In this document: positions 1 to 12,398 of the stretch, piece by piece
Position numbering within the stretch: the first letter of the stretch is position 1
Layout: each line of letters begins with the position of its first letter
Source of the DNA: a bacterium
GTDB lineage: Bacteria > B130-G9
Direction: 5' to 3'
Assembly (NCBI GenBank): GCA_021160245.1
Contig: JAGHCW010000227.1
Location: 1-13,452, forward strand
DNA: 13,452 bases
Translations under genes and position numbers: made by a program
Notes under the pieces: model-generated
The model's input: the letters and a program-made list of their open reading frames with translations, nothing else
Databases searched by the model: none
What the model was told of the DNA's origin: nothing

Positions 1-665
1 ACCGCTTGACCGATAAGCAACAACCCGAGAACCTGGCCCCGGACCTCTTCTCGCCTTGCGACGGCGGAGCACGCCGCTCCGCCCGGCAGGCCCGCGCCAA
101 TGCCGCTGCCAAAGCCCCCAAAGCCCGCGCTTATCCCCGCACCCAGAAGCGCAGCTGCCTTCTCCCACCCCCCCGCGAAGGGTGTGTAAAGGAGGATGAA
201 CGCCACAACCAAGCCGAATACAACGGGAGTTGAGGCGGCGGCCTGAGCGATCAGCATCGTGATGTTGACCTGCCCAGCCACAGATGGGCGTCTGGCTATG
301 CCTTCGCAGGCCATCCCCGCGGGGTAGCCTCCTCCGATTCCAACGCCAAAGCCCGAGATGCCGACCGCTATCCCCGCGCCCAGAAGCGCTGCCATCGTCG
401 CTATGACGTTATCACCACCTATGCTCACACCGGGGCTAATCATCAACACCGCGATGACCAGGGCAAAGATGCCTGATGTTTCGGTTATCGCCTGCCCAAT
501 TAGCATAGTCTTGACAAGCTGGCCTGAGGCGCTCGGCTGACGGGATATGCCCAAGGCGGCCTGGCCTGCTGTGTAACCCTCTCCAATGCCGGCGCCTATC
601 GCACCAAAACCCATGCAAATCCCGGCCGCGAGATACTTGACAGCCTCTGCCCAGTAAACTTCCAT
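1..665 (-). CDS. atpE: F-type ATP synthase subunit c, multi-hairpin fusion (3' end beyond window)
   Basis: Rotor-ring subunit of the membrane Fo sector. The frame is open from ATG at 665 to the left edge (221 full codons), so the protein is partial. An ordinary c subunit has one hairpin and 70-90 residues; here three hairpins lie in tandem, about residues 8-77, 87-160 and 168 onward. Hairpin 1 has GIGEG (E29) in helix 1 and QAITETSG (E62, T63) in helix 2, the sodium-type signature with an extra carboxylate where Ilyobacter has Q32. Hairpin 2 has G112 and S145 at those positions, so it has no ion-binding carboxylate. Hairpin 3 has A191 in helix 1; its helix-2 site, residue 224, lies outside the window. 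Polar loops read SRQPS, ARRPS and ARREE. AAGGG lies 6 bases before the ATG, and atpB ends 15 bases upstream. Family assignment is firm; sodium specificity is inferred. Confidence 0.9.
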   Translation of the reverse strand, partial: MEVYWAEAVKYLAAGICMGFGAIGAGIGEGYTAGQAALGISRQPSASGQLVKTMLIGQAITETSGIFALVIAVLMISPGVSIGGDNVIATMAALLGAGIAVGISGFGVGIGGGYPAGMACEGIARRPSVAGQVNITMLIAQAAASTPVVFGLVVAFILLYTPFAGGWEKAAALLGAGISAGFGGFGSGIGAGLPGGAACSAVARREEVRGQVLGLLLIGQA

Positions 666-680
666 TACTACCCTTAGTTT

Positions 681-1364
681 CTAATCCGAACGAACCGCTA
701 CAGAAGTGTACGTCAAAAACAGCATTGTGAATACGAACGCCTGAACTGAGCCGACAAAAAGACCGAAAAAGCCGTTCAGCACTATCGGCATGAGCAAAAA
801 CATCAGCAGGTGGGAAACAACAACTATGATAATTGACCCGCCCATTATATTGCCGAAAAGACGGAACGAGATCGATATGACCTTCGCAAGCTCACCAATG
901 ATGTTAAGAGGCGCCATAAGAAAGATCGGCTGGAGAAACTCCTTGAAGTATTCTATGATGCCCTTTGCTCGGACTCCGGAGATATGCCATATAAAAAAGC
1001 CCAGCACACCGAGTGATAGAGGGGTATTGATGTCCTTTGTAGGCTCTTCACAGCCGGGTATAATCCCTATCCAATTGGACAAAATGAGGAATATGAACAG
1101 GGTGCCGATCAGTGGGAGGTAGCTCCTATCGTCACGGTCCAGGGCATCTTTGACGAGGCCATCAAAAAAAACAGCAAACATCTCGACCACAAGCTGCAAA
1201 CGCCCGGGAACCTCTTTGAGCCGCCTCGTAACCAGAACCGCCGTTACGATTATGATGGCCATTACGACCCAAGTCATGATCACCGTGACATAATTGACGG
1301 CGCCCAGCGGAGAACCCGCTTCCCCGAACAACTGTATTTGGGCTACGTGCCCTATTTCATCCAT
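681..1364 (-). CDS. atpB: F-type ATP synthase subunit a
   Basis: Stator subunit forming the two ion half-channels against the c ring. The 227-residue protein is hydrophobic with several membrane helices. The hallmark helix near the C-terminus reads FRLFGN, giving the essential arginine R168. Upstream lie SNWIGIIPG and the polar TKDINTPLSLG loop typical of bacterial a subunits. The N-terminal DEIGHVAQIQLFG stretch is also typical. It sits between atpI and atpE on the same strand; atpI ends 6 bases before its ATG. GGAGG at 1379-1383, inside the atpI end, is the only good ribosome binding site and is rather far (14 bases) from the ATG, so translation may be coupled to atpI. Confidence 0.95.
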   Translation of the reverse strand: MDEIGHVAQIQLFGEAGSPLGAVNYVTVIMTWVVMAIIIVTAVLVTRRLKEVPGRLQLVVEMFAVFFDGLVKDALDRDDRSYLPLIGTLFIFLILSNWIGIIPGCEEPTKDINTPLSLGVLGFFIWHISGVRAKGIIEYFKEFLQPIFLMAPLNIIGELAKVISISFRLFGNIMGGSIIIVVVSHLLMFLLMPIVLNGFFGLFVGSVQAFVFTMLFLTYTSVAVRSD

Positions 1365-1370
1365 TGCGTG

Positions 1371-1835
1371 CTAGATAACCTCCGACGTCCTCTTTAAGCC
1401 CGGCAAGAACCGAGCGATAACAGGCTCATAAATAACCAGTACCAAGTTGCATACGAATGTGCCAACGACCACTGAAACAAAATCGACGCTTGAATACTTC
1501 GCGCCAATCAGAAGCGCCAGACCATATAACATAAACCTCGGCAGAAACCACTTGAACGAAATAGCGGCCGCCATCTTTGAGTTTCGGACTGAGAGAAGCC
1601 CGACAGACTTTCTTGCGGCGAACCAAAAACCAGCAATGCTCACAATTGACCCAAGGCCAAATCCCAACGCGACCCCGGTGTAGCCCAGAAGCAGCGCTGA
1701 GGCGCAAACCACGCCCGCGATCAGTGAGGCGATCTTGATAACTCGTCGCCCGAAGTCGCGAATGTATATGACTTGATCGTTCATTTGCGGTCTATCTTTA
1801 GCTATTGTCGTTACGGTTCTTGTCATCTTGCGCAT
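1371..1835 (-). CDS. atpI: ATP synthase subunit I family protein
   Basis: Small membrane protein of the AtpI (ATP-synt_I) family, 154 residues with the start given. Four hydrophobic segments are visible, about residues 34-53, 57-74, 96-112 and 119-138. AtpI proteins help assemble the c ring, most clearly in sodium-type F-ATPases, and some have been linked to Mg/Ca transport; which applies here is inference. It overlaps the end of atpZ by 38 bases and is followed by atpB. The start is uncertain: ATG 1835 has GGAA 9 bases upstream, while ATG 1826 and ATG 1784 are in-frame alternatives. ATG 1784 (MNDQVIYIRD) would give a short N-tail and no overlap with atpZ, but has only a weak AGATAG upstream. 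Family call rests on membrane topology plus operon position more than on a sharp motif. Confidence 0.8.
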   Translation of the reverse strand: MRKMTRTVTTIAKDRPQMNDQVIYIRDFGRRVIKIASLIAGVVCASALLLGYTGVALGFGLGSIVSIAGFWFAARKSVGLLSVRNSKMAAAISFKWFLPRFMLYGLALLIGAKYSSVDFVSVVVGTFVCNLVLVIYEPVIARFLPGLKRTSEVI

Positions 1836-2112
1836 TGTCGCGTTTTCCAGTCTCTGTCGGCATTAGAAAGCCCTTCTGAAGCACTCGATACACGTTAAGA
1901 AAACCCGCTCCAATCCCCATACAAATCCCTATTATCAGGCAAAAATGCCCCGTCTCAAGCCACCTGTCGGCGAAATAACCGCCGGCAAATCCCAGCCCAA
2001 TCCCAAACATCATGGTGATGCCGATCTGAGTTACGAGCGAGATGCTTTTGATAAACTCCCTCGCCGCCTCGTCCTCCGGCCTCCTCTGTTTCCGCATGAG
2101 ACCAAACTCCAC
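1798..2112 (-). CDS. atpZ: AtpZ-like F-ATPase accessory protein
   Basis: First gene of the ATP synthase operon, 104 residues with two membrane helices, about residues 26-46 and 57-77. The conserved family core is visible: FIKSISLVTQIG, then GFAGGYFADRWL, then a glycine-rich second helix ending FLNVYRVL, followed by a charged hydrophilic tail. AtpZ proteins (ATPase_gene1 family) are small companions of AtpI, found at the head of atp operons and implicated in Fo assembly or Mg/Ca transport. The start chosen is GTG 2112, because AGGAGG at 2122-2127 sits 9 bases before it. ATG 2097 (MRKQRRPEDE) is the alternative, but is 24 bases from that site. A longer frame up to 2265 has no family resemblance and would run through the predicted promoter. 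Confidence 0.85.
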   Translation of the reverse strand: MEFGLMRKQRRPEDEAAREFIKSISLVTQIGITMMFGIGLGFAGGYFADRWLETGHFCLIIGICMGIGAGFLNVYRVLQKGFLMPTETGKRDNAQDDKNRNDNS

Positions 2113-2121
2113 CTTATATTG

Positions 2122-2127
2122 CCTCCT
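2122..2127 (-). promoter_or_regulatory. Ribosome binding site deciding the atpZ GTG start
   Basis: On the minus strand this is a perfect AGGAGG with a 9-base spacer to GTG at 2112. Nothing of equal quality precedes ATG 2097; only GGAG inside the GTG-start context is near it. Confidence 0.65.
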
Positions 2128-2191
2128 GTGGATACTGAAGTAGCCAAGCCGCAGTTCAAGACAACCAGACTGCTCAGGAATAAGCCCGCAC

Positions 2192-2220
2192 AAATTAACA
2201 GGCGCTCTGGGCTCTGTCAA
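2192..2220 (-). promoter_or_regulatory. Putative promoter of the atp operon
   Basis: On the minus strand TTGACA (2215-2220) is followed by a 17-base spacer and TAATTT (2192-2197). The -35 is a full consensus match; the -10 matches three of six positions. Predicted transcription start is near 2185, giving a leader of about 70 bases before the atpZ GTG. It is placed back to back with the plus-strand promoter at 2254. Confidence 0.55.
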
Positions 2221-2253
2221 GCAGCTTGGATTCACTAGATTAGATGGGATCAT

Positions 2254-2282
2254 TTGACAATACATGGAGCAACACTTATTTT
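2254..2282 (+). promoter_or_regulatory. Putative promoter of the beta-helix/solenoid operon
   Basis: TTGACA (2254-2259), a 17-base spacer and TATTTT (2277-2282). The -35 is perfect and the -10 matches four of six. It lies about 72 bases upstream of the ATG at 2354 and is the only good match found in the intergenic region on this strand. Confidence 0.55.
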
Positions 2283-2353: not shown

Positions 2354-4069
2354 ATGTTCAGGCGATATTCATTGAATTACTTGATTCTATTTTCGGTTCT
2401 CCTCGCTGTTACCGCCTCGGCTCAGAACATCGTAAGAGTACCGGGGGACTATCTTCAAATTCAAGCTGCGATCGACGCAAGCAGTTTTGGCGATACGATT
2501 CAAGTCACTGCGAAAGGCGAGTCATATAGGGAGAATCTCGTGCTGGGCGACGGGATAATCCTCGAGAGCGAGGGCGCCGAAGAGGTTGTGATCGAAGGGG
2601 ATAATCACTACCACACTGTCGTCATGGGTGACGATTCTGCTGTGCGTGGTTTCACAATTGAGGGCAATCCTTCCTGCATTTACTCGTCGGCTGAGAATGT
2701 GATCGTTGAGGACAACAAGCTCTTGGGTCATTATTACGGCATCTTTGTTGAGGGTGGTTCCGTCGAGATCGTGGACAATGACATTAAGGGCGCTCCGCCT
2801 TTCATTGCCGTTTACTGCATCGGTTGCTCCGGTCTTATGGAGAACTGCGAGATAGAGGGAGCCTATCTTGGCGTCAAGATCGAGGACAGCAGTTTTGAGG
2901 TTCGCCGATGTGTCATTCAGGGAACTGACAATGGTGTGAACGTCGAGTCAAGTACGGGCGCCATATTCAATTGCTACGTTCTAAACAACAACCTCGATGG
3001 CGTGCATTTGAGGGATTCTGATGGCTTCATTCTGGCCAATAGTGTTGTCTGGGGAAGTGGCAAGAGCCTTGTGAGGGGCGTGTTGTGTTTTGACTCGAGC
3101 CCGATTATCGCAAACAACATCATCACCGAATGTAGATTCGGAATAATGACCGGCCCGGATGCGACCCCCATGATTCTGCACAATGATCTATACAATAACG
3201 CGGACGGGGATTACGTCGATTTCCTTGAGAGTGACGTGGAACCATCGCCGGGAATAGGTGAGTTGAATGTCGATCCTCAGTTCGCAGCAAGCGCGCAAAG
3301 TGATTTTCACCTACTGGCGACTTCCGCATGTATCGACGCGGGCTACACGGCCGATGACTACAAGGACTTGGATGGCAGTGCAACGGACATGGGCGCATTC
3401 GGTGGCCCGTTCGCCGGCTGGATTGGTTACAGGACGGCGCCATCGGTTCGGATATCCGCGAATCGCGACGTTTTGGGAATTGATGATGGCGAACCATTCA
3501 TCGTCTCAATCAATTGCGTCTATCGGGATCAGAACACGCTGGAAATAGACAGCTATACGGCGGTTGAGGGCGATTTCGGGCTGCTCTATTTGCCGTGGTT
3601 CACGCCTGAACCCCAGGCCGAGAGAATAACAATTGAACCCTCCCTGACAGAGCAGACGCGGGAGATATTGAATATGCCCGACACCGAGGCGATTCCCTTG
3701 GGTGACTACACATTTTATGCGGCTTATGCGAAGCCGGGGACGCTTGATTTTTACTCTGGCATTAGTTCATGTGAGGTGAGCCGGGTCAACAAGCCGGTTG
3801 CGGTATTTAGCGTGACACCGGATGAGGCTCGCATCGGAGATACGTTCGATTTTGACGCTGGCGATTCGTGGGACGTTGAGGATGATGTGCGTCTTCTGAT
3901 GGTTAGTTGGGATTGGGAAAACGATGGCACTTGGGACAAGGGTCCCACGATCAAGAAGGCTACCACTCACATTTATATGAGCGCTGGAACAAAGACAATA
4001 AAGCTGATGGTAAAGGACACTGAGGGTTACATGGGCTATGCAACCCGACAAGTTATCGTAACCGAGTGA
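2354..4069 (+). CDS. Secreted right-handed parallel beta-helix protein with C-terminal PKD domain
   Basis: 571 residues. The N-terminus is a signal peptide: FRRYS, a hydrophobic core to about residue 20, then ASA with cleavage expected before Q24. From about 27 to 350 the sequence is a run of beta-helix turns of the NosD/pectate-lyase type (for example IVEDNKLLG, IVDNDIKG, FNCYVLNNN, ANNIITE), opening with VPGDYLQIQAAIDAS and closing with SACIDAGY...DMGAFGGP, a familiar end of such domains. Residues 357-478 form an unassigned, probably beta-rich region. Residues 479-571 resemble a PKD domain: DAGDSWDVED, WDWENDGTWD, and TKTIKLMVKDTEG. The protein is likely extracellular or surface-exposed, binding or cutting polysaccharide; no catalytic residues could be assigned, so enzymatic activity is unproven. 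AGGAGGG at 2342-2348 precedes the ATG. The solenoid gene follows after 10 bases, which suggests one operon. Confidence 0.88.
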   Translation: MFRRYSLNYLILFSVLLAVTASAQNIVRVPGDYLQIQAAIDASSFGDTIQVTAKGESYRENLVLGDGIILESEGAEEVVIEGDNHYHTVVMGDDSAVRGFTIEGNPSCIYSSAENVIVEDNKLLGHYYGIFVEGGSVEIVDNDIKGAPPFIAVYCIGCSGLMENCEIEGAYLGVKIEDSSFEVRRCVIQGTDNGVNVESSTGAIFNCYVLNNNLDGVHLRDSDGFILANSVVWGSGKSLVRGVLCFDSSPIIANNIITECRFGIMTGPDATPMILHNDLYNNADGDYVDFLESDVEPSPGIGELNVDPQFAASAQSDFHLLATSACIDAGYTADDYKDLDGSATDMGAFGGPFAGWIGYRTAPSVRISANRDVLGIDDGEPFIVSINCVYRDQNTLEIDSYTAVEGDFGLLYLPWFTPEPQAERITIEPSLTEQTREILNMPDTEAIPLGDYTFYAAYAKPGTLDFYSGISSCEVSRVNKPVAVFSVTPDEARIGDTFDFDAGDSWDVEDDVRLLMVSWDWENDGTWDKGPTIKKATTHIYMSAGTKTIKLMVKDTEGYMGYATRQVIVTE

Positions 4070-4079
4070 GGTTGATTTT

Positions 4080-5651
4080 ATGTCAGACTTTTCGCATTGG
4101 TTCATGTCAGTCTGGTCGGCTCACCCCATGCTTGCTTTTGCGGGCATAGCCGTTGCCGCTTTGGTTGTTCTGTTTTCGCTAAAAGAAGTGGTTGACCGGA
4201 TTCTTGCAGCTCGCGGAAGCGTCTCTTCAGGCAGAGGAATGACCTTCTTCAAGAGACGGAAGATCATTCGAGAGGCGGAGTATCTGATTGATGACGGGCA
4301 CTATCATCAAGCCGGCTCTTTGCTGGATTCGGTTGGGGAGTATGATCTAGCTCTACAGGCGTATTTGAAGGGGGATGACCTCACATCAGCCGCCATGCTT
4401 GCCGAGAAGATCGAACGATACAATCAAGCGGCGACCATCTATCGGAAGCTGGAGGAGTTTGACAGGGCGGCGGAGCTCTATAGCAAGGTGGGGCAACCTG
4501 ACTCGGCAAGGGAAATGCACCTGGCCGCGGCTGAAAAGGCCGCAGAGGCCGGGAAGAACTATATTGCCGCCGAGATGTACGTCAAAGCCGAGGAGATCCC
4601 CAAAGCCGCTGATATGTATGCCAAGTCGGGTGACTTCGAGAAGGCTGCGGTTCTCTTTGAGCGCGCCAAGCTCTATGAGCGGGCGGGTGATGCTTACGAG
4701 ATACTCTATGCGCACACTGTTTCCAGGGAGTTTGGGACTGCGACGGTCTCAAAAGCGGGGAGGCAGTTTGCTCTTGGCGGCGCCCGCGCATTTGAGAATT
4801 CGAGCAACTATACGTCGGCAGCCAGGTTGTATGCGTTTGCCGGAGAGGTTTTGGGGGCTGCGGAGATGCTCTCTCGCGCCGGGGACGACAACGGCGCGGC
4901 GGAGATGTTACTGGAAGCTAAGCGCTTCGATGAGGCAGCAAAGGCCTTCAGGCGCGCCGAGAATGAGGATGGAGCTAACAAAAGCCTGGCGCTAAAGGCT
5001 GTGGATCAAGGGGCATTTGAAGAGGCCGCAAGACTCTTTGAAAAAATCAACGACCACATCCAGGCTGCGGCTCTATACGAGCGACTAGGGATGACATCTG
5101 ATGCTGGCCGGATGTTCGAGGCGGCAAATGAATATATGTCCGCGGCATCAATGTTTGTGGCGGCCGGTGAGTGGGAACGGGCCGCGGAGAACTATGAGAA
5201 AGGCGCATCGAATGCCCGCGCGGCCGAGTATTACGCCAAGGCGGGAAAGGCGGCGAAGGCAGCGCCTCTATTCAAGGCGGCCAGCAAGTATTTTGAGGCT
5301 GGGAAGGCCTTCATGGCTATCGACAAGGAAGAAGAGGCGATGTCGATGTTTCAGCGCATACGACCTTCCGACGAGCATTACGAAGAGGGTTCAAACCTCT
5401 TGGGTGAGCTCTTTGTTAAGAAGGGCAGGCACCGTCTGGCAATTAAGAAGTTCCTCGATGTTCTCAAGAACCACCCAATCACGCTTGATAATGTCGGAAT
5501 GTCGTACAATCTCGCCCGGGCTTACGAGTTGACGGGGCAACCGTCCAGCGCGAAATTGCTCTACGAGAAGATAATCCTGGTTGATTTCAACTTCAAAGAC
5601 GCCAACGACCGTCTTTCTGCACTTGAGAAATCGGAGTCCGGCGCCTCGTAA
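4080..5651 (+). CDS. Membrane-anchored alpha-solenoid (TPR-like) protein with 13-residue repeats
   Basis: 523 residues. One membrane helix lies at about 16-34 (MLAFAGIAVAALVVLF in its core), followed by a basic stretch (FFKRRKIIR at 56-64). By the positive-inside rule this puts the rest in the cytoplasm, though that is inference. Residues 75-429 are built from short helical units of 13 residues, such as FDRAAELYSKVGQ (127-139), IPKAADMYAKSGD (173-185), FEEAARLFEKIND (313-325) and WERAAENYEKGAS (365-377). The pattern is aromatic-x-x-A-A-x-hydrophobic-aromatic. The run is broken near 140-160, 212-243 and 296-312. Residues 433-515 look like two ordinary 34-residue TPR units. The likely role is a protein-protein scaffold; partners are unknown. 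AGG lies 8 bases before the ATG, and the gene is probably co-transcribed with the upstream beta-helix gene. No clear terminator follows it. Confidence 0.85.
   Translation: MSDFSHWFMSVWSAHPMLAFAGIAVAALVVLFSLKEVVDRILAARGSVSSGRGMTFFKRRKIIREAEYLIDDGHYHQAGSLLDSVGEYDLALQAYLKGDDLTSAAMLAEKIERYNQAATIYRKLEEFDRAAELYSKVGQPDSAREMHLAAAEKAAEAGKNYIAAEMYVKAEEIPKAADMYAKSGDFEKAAVLFERAKLYERAGDAYEILYAHTVSREFGTATVSKAGRQFALGGARAFENSSNYTSAARLYAFAGEVLGAAEMLSRAGDDNGAAEMLLEAKRFDEAAKAFRRAENEDGANKSLALKAVDQGAFEEAARLFEKINDHIQAAALYERLGMTSDAGRMFEAANEYMSAASMFVAAGEWERAAENYEKGASNARAAEYYAKAGKAAKAAPLFKAASKYFEAGKAFMAIDKEEEAMSMFQRIRPSDEHYEEGSNLLGELFVKKGRHRLAIKKFLDVLKNHPITLDNVGMSYNLARAYELTGQPSSAKLLYEKIILVDFNFKDANDRLSALEKSESGAS
4302..5366 (+). 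repeat. Coding region of tandem 13-residue (39-base) helical units
   Basis: Encodes residues 75-429 of the solenoid protein. About 22 units of 13 residues can be laid out with only three interruptions; between 313 and 429 nine units follow each other with no gap. Units share A at positions 4 and 5 and an aromatic or leucine at positions 1 and 8. The repeat is conserved in protein, not in nucleotide sequence, so it is old rather than a recent DNA duplication. Confidence 0.75.
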
Positions 5652-7204: not shown

Positions 7205-7318
7205 CTCTGTGCTCTCTGTGTCTCTGTGGCGAGAGGACCCTTGAATGAAACTCACTAGCCAGAACGGGACAAAAGGGGAAAGGAAAATAGAACGACAGAG
7301 ACACAAAGATTCACAGAG
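7205..7318 (+). repeat. Imperfect inverted repeat between the WbqC-like and radical SAM genes
   Basis: The left arm (7205-7229) reads CTCTGTGCTCTCTGTGTCTC and continues TGTGG. The reverse complement of the right arm (7293-7318) matches it at about 22 of 26 positions with one gap. The arms are separated by 63 bases. In RNA this would fold into a long stem whose 3' arm ends just before the radical SAM start codon and includes part of AGAGAGG, its likely ribosome binding site. CTCTGTGTCTCTGTGG-type words are, to my recollection, widespread intergenic repeats in some environmental bacteria, so this may be one copy of a dispersed element. Confidence 0.65.
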
Positions 7319-7328
7319 AGGCGGAGGA

Positions 7329-8861
7329 ATGACGCATTTCAAAGTCTGCTTGGTCGCGCTTTACAACACTGAACTGTCGGGCGTCAGGTATATTCACTCG
7401 CTTCTAAAATCCGAGGGTTTTGACGCCTCGATAATCTTCTTCAAGCGGCTGAACATAAATGACGGAAAGCCAGCCACTGAGAAAGAACTCGATCTTTTTG
7501 CGGAGCTCATTGGGCGGATTGAGCCTGACCTTCTGGGAATTGGCATTGGCTGCTCGACGTTCCGCAACACGGCTCTGGAGCTGACCAAAAAGGCCCGAGA
7601 GGTCGTGGATTGCCCCATCGTGTGGGGAGGCGTTCACGTAACTGTTACGGCGGATCGGTCGCTCTCGGAGCACGAGCTCCTCGTCATTGGTGAGGGCGAG
7701 GCGGCGATGCTTGATCTGGCAAAAAGGCTTTCAGATGGCAAGAGCATAGATGATGTCGAGAACGTATGGCTTTCCAGGGATGGGAGGGAGATCAAGAATC
7801 CCGTACGAGCGCCGGTTCAAGACCTCGACCGGCTCCCGTTCCATGATTTTGGCAACGAGGGCAAGTTCTTCATCAATGAGGACGAGCTCTTTGAGTTCGA
7901 TCCGCTTGTTGAGGAGCACGATCTCTACCAGGTGATGACGACAAGGGGCTGTCCTTTTGCCTGCACATATTGCGCAAATAGCGTCTATAGCAAGCTCTAC
8001 CGGGGGATGGGCAAGCTCGTCAGGACGCGATCTGTTGAGAACGTAATCTCCGAGCTTCAATACGCCACAAAGATGCTGCCGAACATCAAGCAAGTGGCCT
8101 TTTACGACGACGTCTTTGGCCTCGATCTCAAATGGACGGCCAAGTTCTGCGAACAATACAAGGAGAAAATCGGCATTCCATACTGGGTATATGTTCACCC
8201 CAAGACGGTCAACGAGCAGCTGATCAGGATGTTGAAGGATAGTGGCCTGGTTTACGTTGACATGGGCATTCAGAGCGGATCGCAGCGTGTGCGCAATGAG
8301 TTTTTCAAGCGGATGGACACAAATGAGGACGTTCAGCGGGCGATGTCAATTGTCCACGACCTGAAGGTCAAACCCAGGCTTGATTTCATAATGGACAATC
8401 CGTTTGAGGAGGCGAGCGACAAGCAAGAGCTTTTGCAACTACTTTTGAGCTTCAAGCGCCCGTTCGAGTTTCGGCTCTATTCGCTGGCATATTTCCCGGG
8501 CGTGGAGCTGACCAGGATGGCGCTCGAGCGTGGTTATATACAGGAAGATGACGTTGAGGACATCTCCTGCAAGACCATGAAGCAGTGGTTTGTCTCCACG
8601 GATTTCAAGCGGTCGAAGGAGGACATTCTGCTAAATAGCCTGGTCTCGCTGACGGGCAAATCTTTCGTGCCTCGCTTTATGATTCGAACGCTCTCCAAGA
8701 TCGGGTTTCTACGGTCGTTCCCCACGCCAGTTGTTCTGCTATCGACAATTGCCAATATCATTCGATTCTTCTGGACGGGGCTAAAACTGCTTTTGAAGGG
8801 CGAGGTCTCGTTTGCCATGGTCAGAAAACACATCAAGTTCGTATTCACCGTCAGCAGGTAG
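7329..8861 (+). CDS. B12-binding-type radical SAM protein
   Basis: 510 residues. The N-terminal 150 or so residues form a B12-binding-like Rossmann domain: KVCLVALYN, PDLLGIGIGCSTF, IVWGGVHVTVTA and VIGEGEAA. The DxHxxG cobalamin-ligand motif is not evident, as in many members. The radical SAM core follows with TTRGCPFACTYC, where C208, C212 and C215 bind the 4Fe-4S cluster; FYDDVFGLD and VDMGIQSGSQRVRN follow in the barrel. The C-terminal 100 residues are rich in hydrophobic and basic stretches (TPVVLLSTIANIIRFFWTGL), suggesting membrane association. Substrate unknown; the WbqC-like neighbour hints at glycan or lipid modification, but that is inference. ATG 7329 is preferred, because the extension back to ATG 7245 merely translates the inverted repeat. 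GGAGG touches the ATG, so AGAGAGG at 7315-7321 is the likelier ribosome binding site. dnaE follows after 21 bases. Confidence 0.88.
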   Translation: MTHFKVCLVALYNTELSGVRYIHSLLKSEGFDASIIFFKRLNINDGKPATEKELDLFAELIGRIEPDLLGIGIGCSTFRNTALELTKKAREVVDCPIVWGGVHVTVTADRSLSEHELLVIGEGEAAMLDLAKRLSDGKSIDDVENVWLSRDGREIKNPVRAPVQDLDRLPFHDFGNEGKFFINEDELFEFDPLVEEHDLYQVMTTRGCPFACTYCANSVYSKLYRGMGKLVRTRSVENVISELQYATKMLPNIKQVAFYDDVFGLDLKWTAKFCEQYKEKIGIPYWVYVHPKTVNEQLIRMLKDSGLVYVDMGIQSGSQRVRNEFFKRMDTNEDVQRAMSIVHDLKVKPRLDFIMDNPFEEASDKQELLQLLLSFKRPFEFRLYSLAYFPGVELTRMALERGYIQEDDVEDISCKTMKQWFVSTDFKRSKEDILLNSLVSLTGKSFVPRFMIRTLSKIGFLRSFPTPVVLLSTIANIIRFFWTGLKLLLKGEVSFAMVRKHIKFVFTVSR

Positions 8862-8882: not shown

Positions 8883-11800
8883 TTGAGTAAAACATTCGTT
8901 CATCTGCACGTTCATACAGACTACAGCATTCTGGACGGGATGTGCACAATTCCTAGGCTCGTCGAGAAGGCCGTCCAATGGGGCATGCCGGCTATGGCCA
9001 TTACTGACCACGGCAACCTCTTCGGGGTCATCGAGTTTTACCAGGCCTGCACATCGGCCGGCATCAAGCCGATAATCGGCTGCGAGGTCTATGTTGCGCC
9101 TCGCAAGATGACAGACAAAGAATCGAGCAAGGACGGGCAATCTAGGACAGCGCATCTCGTCTTGCTAGCAAAGAATTACGAGGGTTACCTGAATCTTGCG
9201 AAGCTGTCGTCGGCAGCATTCATTGATGGTTTTTTCTATAAACCGAGAGTAGATAGGGACCTTCTGCGGAAGCACTCGTCGGGGCTTATCGCTCTGTCGG
9301 CTTGCGTGAAGGGCGAGGTCGCCTCGAATCTGAGGAGTGGACAGCATCAAAAGGCCAGGGAGGCCGCTGAGTTCTACAGCGAGACATTTGGTCCGGGCAA
9401 CTTCTTTTTGGAGATCATGAACAACTGTCCACTGCAGCGGGGTCTAATCCGGCCAATCGTGGATCTTGCGAAGGAGATGAACCTCCCATTGGTGGCCACC
9501 AACGACTGTCATTATGTGGACAAAGAGGACGCCAAGGCCCACGACGCTCTACTTGCTCTGCAGCAGAAGAAGAAAGTCGAGGAAGAGGACCGTATGAGGT
9601 TTCCGACCGATGACTTTTATCTGAAATCGCCTGACATAATGCACAAGGAGTTCGCTGAATTTCATGAGGCGCTTGCGAACACATATCTTGTGGCCGAGAT
9701 GTGCGAGGATTCTATTCTCAAGCCCTCCATGGGCGCCTACCTGACGCCGGAGTTTGTGGTGCCCCCTGACCACGATCTTGATAGCTACATGTCGGAGCTG
9801 GCGAGTAAAGGTCTTGATGAAAAACTGGAGCTTATGCGAGCTTCGATGACCGATAGCCAGTTCCAGACGATTGCCGAAAAATACCGGGAACGCCTGGCGA
9901 TGGAGATCGAGATCATATTGAAGACCAGATTCTCTGGATACTTCCTGATCGTTTGGGATTTCATCCGTTTTGCCGTGCAGCGCGGCATCCCGGTCGGCCC
10001 CGGGCGAGGCTCTGCGGTCGGCAGCCTGGTCTGCTACTGCCTCGGGATAACCGACATAGACCCGATAAAGTATGACTTGCTGTTTGAGCGGTTCCTCAAT
10101 CCTGAACGGATAGGGATGCCGGACATTGACATTGATCTGTGTCAGCAGCGCCGGGAGGAGGTCTTCACGTACCTTCGTGGCAAGTACGGCGAGCGCAATG
10201 TGGCGCAGATAGTCGTGTTCCACAAGTTCAAGACTGATTCGGTCATTCTTGACATGGCTCGTGTGCTGTCAATCCCCGCGCAGAAGGCCACGCTAGTGAA
10301 GTCGATGATTCCCCCTGGCATGACGCTTGACGAGGCGATTTCAGAGGTGCCGGGGCTCGCCGCGACGATGAAGGATGACCCGGACGTGAATACGCTTGTG
10401 GATATGGGTCGCCGGCTAGATGGCGTGACGAGGCACGTCGGCAAACACGCCTGCGGTGTTGTTATCTCGCCCAGGCCGCTCTCTGAGATCATTCCGCTCT
10501 ATAAGCCTTCCGACAAGGACGACATAACCACGCAATATCACATGGAGTCGGTTGGTGAACTTGGCCTACTAAAGATGGACCTTCTTGGGCTGAAGACGCT
10601 CACCATGATAGCCAAGTGCATTAGTTTGGTGGAAGAGAGTCGCGGTGTCAAAATCGACCTATCGCATGTTCCGCTGGACGACAACGAGACCTTAGCCCTT
10701 TTTGCCACCGCCGACACAACCGGGGTCTTCCAGTTTGAGAGTTCCAGCATGAGGAGTCTTCTAAAGCGCATAAAACCGGACTGCTTTGAGGACGTCATAG
10801 CCTGCAATGCGCTGCACCGTCCGGGGCCGATGAAGTCAGGAATGGTTGATGACTACGCCGAGCGCAAGCATGGCCGCCAGGAGGTCGATTACTTAGGCTT
10901 TGATCAGCTGGAGCCTATTCTCAAGGAGACAAATGGAGTAGTCGTCTATCAGGAGCAAGCGATGCGCATCTCAAACGTCATCGCCGGCTTCTCTTACGGA
11001 CAGGCCGACATGCTGCGCAAAGCGATGAGCAAGAAGAAGATGAAGGTCATGGAGGCCATGCGCGCGAAGTTCGTAGCCGGGGCGGCCACAAATGGGATAC
11101 GAGATGGTCAGGCAAACAAGCTCTTTGACCTCCTGTCCGGCTTTGCTGAGTATGGATTCAACAAATCACACAGCACGGCTTACGGCTACCTAGCGTTTCA
11201 GTGTGCCTATCTAAAGGCTCATTATCTGCCAGAATTCGTCGCGGCGACGTTGAGCATAAACAGGAACGATTACGCCTCGTTGCGCTCGAAGCTTGCGGGA
11301 TGCCGCGGTCTGGGCATCGAACTCCGGCCTCCGGACATCAACAAAAGCGCTGCTGATTTCTCGGTAGTCGAGGACTCTGTTCTATTCGGTCTATCGGCCA
11401 TCAAGGGGATTGGGAGCGGGGTGGTGTCTGAGATCATCAAAGCGCGGGATGATGGCGGCCCATTCAAATCGATGATAGAGTTCTGCAAGAGAGCGCCTCA
11501 AGGAGTTGCCAAGCGAAGCGTCTTGGAGAGGCTGATATGCTCAGGGGCATTCGATTGTCTTGGCCCGACGCGGGCACAGCACTCGGCAATGATCGATGAC
11601 GCCCTGAATTTGACTGCCTCCGCCCGTGAGGAGAAGGAGAGCGGCCAGGCATCACTTTTCGGGGCCATTCCGATCGCACAGAACGGAGCTGATGAGGTCG
11701 AAGTCCCGGACATACCTCAGTGGGATATGGATGAGCTCCTGGAGAAGGAAAGAGGTGTCTTGGAGGTCTATCTCTCCGGACACCCCCTTGAGAAATACCG

Positions 11801-12398
11801 CCCACAGCTTGATAGGTTCATGGTCGCCTCCATTGCGAAGATCATCGAGAACATCTCGGGTGTAAAAGCCGGCGATAAGCTCCGACTCGCCGGCGTAATC
11901 ATCGAGAAGGCGATTAAACGAACCAGAAAAAAGGAGCGAATGGCAGTTCTCATGATGGAGGACCTCACCGGCCTTTATCGAGTAGTCGTCTTCCCAGAGC
12001 TTTACAAACAGGTAGTCGAGCTCCTGGAGGGACATGAGCCTCTCGCTATCACCGGCACCATCAAGATCGAATCGACCGAGGCCGAGGAGGGCGACAGCGT
12101 TGAGATATTTGCGGAGGAAATCTACCCTCTTTGCGCCTTGCGTGAGCGAATGATGACGGAGCTTCGCCTGAGGCTATCGGCGCGATTGCTGGACGATCAA
12201 CAGCTCGGGATTCTACACGATGTGATCAAGAGCTATCCCGGCAATTGCATGCTCACGCTGCAGCTTGAGCAGCTCTCTGAAAATGGAATCGCATCCGTAC
12301 TCATTGAGGCCGGTGATGAGTTCAGAGTCTCGCCATCTGAGGCGCTGATTGCTCGCCTCGAGGAGCTACCTCTTATTCTGGGCATAATTGAGCAGTAG
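8883..12398 (+). CDS. dnaE: DNA polymerase III alpha subunit
   Basis: 1171 residues, close to the 1160 of E. coli DnaE; the catalytic subunit of the replicative polymerase. The start is TTG 8883, with AGGAG ending 6 bases upstream. Domain order is standard. The PHP domain (about 5-280) opens HLHVHTDYSILDG and contains ITDHGN and GCEVYVAP. The palm has GPGRGSAVGS, the catalytic PDIDID motif (D414, D416, D418) and KMDLLGL (D566). Fingers and helix-hairpin-helix follow, then an OB fold near 980-1070 (LRLAGVIIEKAIKR) and a C-terminal domain. Metal ligands of an active PHP exonuclease are all present (H9, H11, D18, H43, E68, H91, C141, D208, H210), whereas E. coli has lost several. It converges with the minus-strand gene 31 bases downstream, with no clear terminator between. 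Confidence 0.97.
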   Translation: MSKTFVHLHVHTDYSILDGMCTIPRLVEKAVQWGMPAMAITDHGNLFGVIEFYQACTSAGIKPIIGCEVYVAPRKMTDKESSKDGQSRTAHLVLLAKNYEGYLNLAKLSSAAFIDGFFYKPRVDRDLLRKHSSGLIALSACVKGEVASNLRSGQHQKAREAAEFYSETFGPGNFFLEIMNNCPLQRGLIRPIVDLAKEMNLPLVATNDCHYVDKEDAKAHDALLALQQKKKVEEEDRMRFPTDDFYLKSPDIMHKEFAEFHEALANTYLVAEMCEDSILKPSMGAYLTPEFVVPPDHDLDSYMSELASKGLDEKLELMRASMTDSQFQTIAEKYRERLAMEIEIILKTRFSGYFLIVWDFIRFAVQRGIPVGPGRGSAVGSLVCYCLGITDIDPIKYDLLFERFLNPERIGMPDIDIDLCQQRREEVFTYLRGKYGERNVAQIVVFHKFKTDSVILDMARVLSIPAQKATLVKSMIPPGMTLDEAISEVPGLAATMKDDPDVNTLVDMGRRLDGVTRHVGKHACGVVISPRPLSEIIPLYKPSDKDDITTQYHMESVGELGLLKMDLLGLKTLTMIAKCISLVEESRGVKIDLSHVPLDDNETLALFATADTTGVFQFESSSMRSLLKRIKPDCFEDVIACNALHRPGPMKSGMVDDYAERKHGRQEVDYLGFDQLEPILKETNGVVVYQEQAMRISNVIAGFSYGQADMLRKAMSKKKMKVMEAMRAKFVAGAATNGIRDGQANKLFDLLSGFAEYGFNKSHSTAYGYLAFQCAYLKAHYLPEFVAATLSINRNDYASLRSKLAGCRGLGIELRPPDINKSAADFSVVEDSVLFGLSAIKGIGSGVVSEIIKARDDGGPFKSMIEFCKRAPQGVAKRSVLERLICSGAFDCLGPTRAQHSAMIDDALNLTASAREEKESGQASLFGAIPIAQNGADEVEVPDIPQWDMDELLEKERGVLEVYLSGHPLEKYRPQLDRFMVASIAKIIENISGVKAGDKLRLAGVIIEKAIKRTRKKERMAVLMMEDLTGLYRVVVFPELYKQVVELLEGHEPLAITGTIKIESTEAEEGDSVEIFAEEIYPLCALRERMMTELRLRLSARLLDDQQLGILHDVIKSYPGNCMLTLQLEQLSENGIASVLIEAGDEFRVSPSEALIARLEELPLILGIIEQ

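Follow-up and report, generated by a model that had tools for sequence, protein, structure and literature searches.

The stretch of DNA considered here, referred to below as the window, is an entire contig of 13,452 bases (JAGHCW010000227.1 of assembly GCA_021160245.1) and carries at its edge a gene for a fused c subunit of an F-type ATP synthase. The c-subunit open reading frame (ORF; 3..665, minus strand), here called atpE1, is open throughout its 221 codons, which encode the N-terminal part (5' end) of the protein, and leaves the contig at its end; the part of the gene beyond the edge can only be read from relatives. PF00137 matches the product in three stretches (whole-protein E 9.7e-34). 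Hairpin 1 (residues 5-81; 423..653, minus strand) has a complete ion site formed by E29 (579-581), E62 (480-482) and T63, with E62 in the context ITETSGI. Hairpin 2 (residues 87-163; 177..407, minus strand) is without a carboxylate and has G112 (330-332) and S145 (231-233) at the corresponding positions, S145 being followed by P147 in the context AASTPVV. Hairpin 3 (residues 167-221; 3..167, minus strand) has Ala at the helix-1 position and stops at LLLIGQA, immediately ahead of its helix-2 site, so that the visible sites read E,S before the sequence is cut. An uninterrupted frame of three hairpins running past the edge, with E62 in the first and S145 and P147 in the second, had been described in an initial annotation made from the sequence alone, and its residue numbers are exact.

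The closest matching named records to the window protein belong to Candidatus Coatesbacteria. Three genomes of the same family (G001, G002 and G003; 83%, 75% and 75% identical to the window fragment, respectively) encode a complete c protein of 320 amino acids with four hairpins and no internal stop. The estimate of at least three hairpins in the initial annotation therefore stands, but the term triple-hairpin does not fit these relatives. At the helix-2 sites G001 has E,S,Q,Q and both G002 and G003 have E,E,Q,Q; the site that is cut off in hairpin 3 of the window is thus Gln in all three relatives. The site-less state of hairpin 2 is thus shared with G001, where Ser is also present, but not with G002 and G003, which have Glu. 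In all three relatives a one-hairpin c with an intact site, referred to as c2, follows directly after the fused c, as the initial annotation had proposed to check. Within the family c2 is 98% identical, the hairpins of the fused c are 39-54% identical to one another, and evolution is faster in hairpins 2-4 than in c2.

Upstream of the c gene, all on the minus strand, are atpB for the F-type subunit a (681..1364; PF00119, E 2.9e-51), which is its direct neighbor, an atpI-like gene (1371..1835; PF03899, E 1.3e-7) and an atpZ-like gene (1798..2265; PF09527, E 3.5e-15, ORF residues 76-127), which probably starts downstream of the ATG listed for it. In G001 the fused c is followed by one-hairpin c, b, b', delta and alpha. 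The operon of the window genome continues on another contig (C61) that starts inside atpA and proceeds to gamma, beta and epsilon. A profile search of this genome's contigs gave no second PF00137 match, a b'-subunit query against the assembly gave no match, and the place of c2 corresponds to an assembly gap. The operon genes are F-type a, b, delta, alpha and gamma, which assigns the system to the F-type and not to the V/A-type enzymes, although the window c departs from the usual form of one hairpin and one carboxylate per chain, a form that is no requirement of the family. In G001 and in two Coatesbacteria records of the G002 and G003 contigs, one a gene and no further c genes were found; within the completeness of these assemblies (83-95%), the fused-c set is the sole F-type membrane sector of the three relatives.

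Fused c subunits are widely distributed. When one genome per species was scanned, 436 relatives were obtained, and the best 80 of these have fused c proteins with 3-6 hairpins. Together with further survey genomes these gave 99 distinct proteins, with two (7 proteins), three (16), four (54), five (15) or six hairpins (7, including L094, which was counted with a weak extra N-terminal match). The named carriers are mostly Desulfobacterota, including isolates, as well as Cloacimonadota, one Spirochaete and one Planctomycete metagenome-assembled genome (MAG), and the gene is present on the complete chromosome of Desulfosarcina widdelii (NZ_AP021875.1). An independent survey of 386 genomes found a fused c in about 23 genomes from 16 family groups. 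The a gene lies upstream in 80 of 80 loci and a single c is next in 79, the remaining locus being at a contig end. Some variants were also encountered. A different four-hairpin c with sites E,Q,E,D directly follows atpB at L037:5631-7318 (G005; also in G292), in genomes of small size, with no single c adjoining and the gamma gene about 550 kb distant. In two loci (L059 and L061, in G117 and G254) the c that precedes the single c consists of two hairpins and has kept both of its sites, which represents fusion without site loss. The four-hairpin c of L044 (G086) has near-identical hairpins 2 and 3, probably due to a recent internal duplication.

The ion sites follow a regular pattern. Of 98 proteins 90 retain Glu in hairpin 1, Gln is the rule in middle hairpins (181 of 197), and in the last hairpin Gln and Glu are about equally common. 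The helix-1 and helix-2 carboxylates are present together (132) or jointly lost (240) in 372 of 393 hairpins and mixed in the other 21 (20 one way, 1 the other), counts that come from related and not independent sequences. Gln occupies the site in 226 of 241 site-less hairpins. A Pro two residues past the site, like P147 in the window, occurs in 136 of 187 middle site-less hairpins versus 7 of 152 site-bearing hairpins. Several fused c proteins have no carboxylate at all (L045, GQQQ; L046, L054 and L144, SQQ; L053 and L055, GQ). The adjoining single c has the full E..ES motif in 88 of 88 cases. Hairpin 1 of the window (E..ET) and c2 (E..ES) have the two-carboxylate variant of the motif and may bind Na+; in Fusobacterium nucleatum this variant is described as a Na+ site that also holds a proton permanently (PMC3692424). 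That Gln is conserved at lost sites, and has not drifted, hints at a need for a neutral hydrogen-bonding side chain at the a–c interface.

Comparison of the window with G001 gave a ratio of nonsynonymous to synonymous substitution rates (dN/dS) of 0.11 over 220 codons. Since hairpin 1 has a value of 0.06, hairpin 2 of 0.11 and hairpin 3 of 0.18, every visible hairpin is under purifying selection. An AlphaFold model of the Coatesbacteria protein, based on a 38-sequence alignment, has eight membrane helices arranged in four hairpins (mean predicted local distance difference test score 95.3, predicted template modeling score 0.91). The closest PDB match by sequence is c1 of Acetobacterium woodii (4bem_J, E 7.4e-25), which agrees with the kinship to the Acetobacterium two-hairpin subunit and the smaller number of sites than hairpins that the initial annotation had noticed. 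The same chain is the closest fold match, with two-hairpin V-type chains next; no four-hairpin F-type chain was among the structure matches.

The two-hairpin c1 of A. woodii and Clostridium aceticum, which has Glu/Gln sites and occurs beside an ordinary c (PMC7911925), is the closest known system. The gene order in an F-type operon, fused c and then one-hairpin c, is the same, and hairpin 1 likewise keeps the site while the other hairpin has Gln; that enzyme uses Na+. However, it has exactly two hairpins with one site, whereas four are found in the Coatesbacteria relatives and 3-6 in others. The helix-1 Na+ ligand is Gln there, but here it is Glu, which is lost in site-less hairpins. Archaeal K subunits also have at least three hairpins per chain (three in Methanocaldococcus jannaschii, thirteen in Methanopyrus kandleri), but these are A/V-type and M. 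kandleri has a full site in every hairpin (PMC2359735). The c-ring of F. nucleatum (3zk1; PMC3692424) shares the two-carboxylate site of hairpin 1 and c2, but consists of eleven identical one-hairpin subunits with a site in each. The V-ATPase proteolipid c and NtpK of Enterococcus hirae (2bl2) resemble the fused c in having joined hairpins, fewer sites than hairpins and a matching fold, but belong to V-type enzymes with two-hairpin chains and a different operon. Literature searches on F-type fusions of more than two hairpins, on Coatesbacteria ATP synthase and on Desulfobacterota c subunits found nothing relevant, the 2015 survey by Brandt and Müller not being covered. That survey of hybrid rotors reportedly lists about twelve species with an F-type enzyme and a two-hairpin c. 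In the literature searched, the nearest kind is the hybrid F-type rotor, of which the fused c would be a new form: its chain is longer, with fewer sites for its length, than the two-hairpin c1 already described.

In view of the above, the window gene probably encodes the c1 subunit of a hybrid Fo rotor that works at a low ion:ATP ratio. The four-hairpin c1 would join the c-ring together with the one-hairpin c2 encoded by the next gene. Both c2 and hairpin 1 of c1 bear complete sites, with Glu in helix 1 and Glu-Ser/Thr in helix 2, and because these are of the two-carboxylate type the coupling ion would probably be Na+. The other c1 hairpins could act mostly as neutral spacers, with Gln or sometimes Ser at the site. 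The number of ions translocated per turn would then be lower than the number of hairpins in the ring, which would lower the ion:ATP ratio, an effect also put forward for A. woodii, and thereby favor operation at low energy yield. As an illustration only, if a ring is assumed to have 11 hairpins and one c1, the window type would transport 8 ions per turn or 2.7 per ATP, and an EQQQQQ type 6 ions per turn or 2.0 per ATP. Both the ring stoichiometry and the c1 copy number enter this argument, and neither can be read from the sequence; in the A. woodii ring (4bem) one c1 chain is combined with nine c2 chains.

Two points weigh against such a hybrid rotor. Hairpin 4 and c2 lie outside the assembly of the window genome, and their presence would follow from the relatives. 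Furthermore, E56Q in just one hairpin of the fused c10 ring of Bacillus PS3 was enough to abolish ATP synthesis (PMC8809890), and an ordinary ring would therefore be expected to stall at runs of 2-5 Gln hairpins. The A. woodii ring works with one Gln hairpin, whereas the PS3 ring does not.

Other explanations should account for the same observations. If c1 were not part of the rotor but a relict, an assembly aid or a regulator encoded in the operon, the frequent loss of its sites and the faster evolution of hairpins 2-4 would be understandable, and c2 alone, so strongly conserved within the family, would give a normal ring. Yet all hairpins are under purifying selection, Gln is retained at nearly all lost sites, the position of c1 between a and c2 is strict, and in A. 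woodii c1 is found inside the crystallized ring (4bem). We consider a role outside the rotor unlikely. Slightly less likely still is a homo-oligomeric ring of c1, for example of three four-hairpin chains, that acts as a V-like ATP-hydrolyzing ion pump, with c2 forming another ring. A ring of twelve hairpins would be of plausible size, a ratio of one site to two hairpins is known from V-ATPase rotors, and two-hairpin V-type chains rank directly after 4bem_J in the fold comparison. However, the c1 proteins that have no carboxylate (L045, L046, L053, L054, L055 and L144) could not move ions by themselves, and there is a single a gene in Coatesbacteria and in another genome, G102. A V-like rotor favoring ATP-driven pumping had been suggested in the initial annotation and is without direct support, the fused c of Coatesbacteria being part of their sole ATP synthase. 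Synthesis at low ion-motive force fits these organisms at least as well as pumping, because the genomes that have this sole ATP synthase also encode Rnf and a membrane pyrophosphatase, as does the window genome.

The initial annotation had itself named merged c genes, or homologs that are all single-hairpin, as what would speak against its reading. The position of the window gene at a contig end would be compatible with separate c genes merged by an assembly or sequencing error. This was rejected and has hardly any probability left, since the same architecture is found in three independent relatives, in isolates and on a complete chromosome, and since each hairpin has a different sequence.

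The Desulfobacterota add a further aspect to the hybrid rotor. In Desulfosarcina widdelii (L091) and Desulfatibacillum alkenivorans (L082) the operon that contains the fused c is restricted to the membrane sector. It reads Z-I-a-c(multi)-c-b-b' (the Z gene being observed in Desulfatibacillum alkenivorans), and F1 genes do not follow it. There are two a genes versus one gamma gene in Desulfatibacillum alkenivorans, Dethiosulfatarculus, Desulfocarbo, Desulfatitalea alkaliphila and the Desulfobacterales MAG G395, and three versus two in Desulfosarcina widdelii and D. cetonica. In the latter two one a/c/gamma group is clustered and has a weaker gamma match; judging from its position this is probably an N-type ATPase. 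Another genome, G394, was left out of this count since no gamma match was found. Seven Desulfobacterota genomes thus have an ordinary a/c set besides the fused-c set and one F-type gamma for both, and because of this imbalance the two sets may share a single F1.

It is tempting to go further and consider a widespread class of F-type rotors in which 2-5 consecutive hairpins form a site-less arc; in some species the arc would comprise an entire chain of three or four hairpins, none with a carboxylate. Between about a fifth and almost half of the ring would then turn without carrying an ion, and in sulfate reducers this rotor would belong to a second, interchangeable membrane sector on a single F1, giving the cell two gears. 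We regard this combined proposal as tentative and well short of probable. Models of Fo rotation have each hairpin that passes subunit a present a carboxylate. Natural rings with long Gln arcs would directly test this assumption, and site-poor fused c subunits are encoded by sulfate reducers that are cultured and genome-sequenced. Should two Fo sectors indeed have a single F1 in common, cells might be able to switch their ion:ATP ratio, a possibility relevant to anaerobic life near the energetic limit.

The origin of the fused gene was examined with a tree of hairpins (71 columns, the two site columns masked). Hairpins cluster by their position in the chain across phyla (15 changes, compared with 72.5 on average after shuffling), and the last one is the closest to the single c, which points to an old fused gene that spread vertically or horizontally. 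Approximately unbiased tests are not decisive, as one clade per phylum, the pattern expected from independent duplications, was not rejected (p 0.09-0.26), and the between-position identities have only a weak diagonal. The two hairpins from A. woodii pair together in the tree (Shimodaira-Hasegawa-like approximate likelihood ratio test 92, not decisive), which suggests that its c1 may have arisen by a separate duplication.

Elsewhere in the window, all on the plus strand, are genes for a right-handed beta-helix (NosD-like) protein that looks secreted and has a PKD domain at its C terminus (2354-4069), a TPR protein that has repeat matches of the clathrin/IFT type and what looks by eye like a membrane helix at its N terminus (4080-5651), a B12-binding radical SAM protein that scores below every curated cut-off (7245-8861), and the DNA polymerase III alpha subunit (DnaE) with TTG as listed start (8883-12398).
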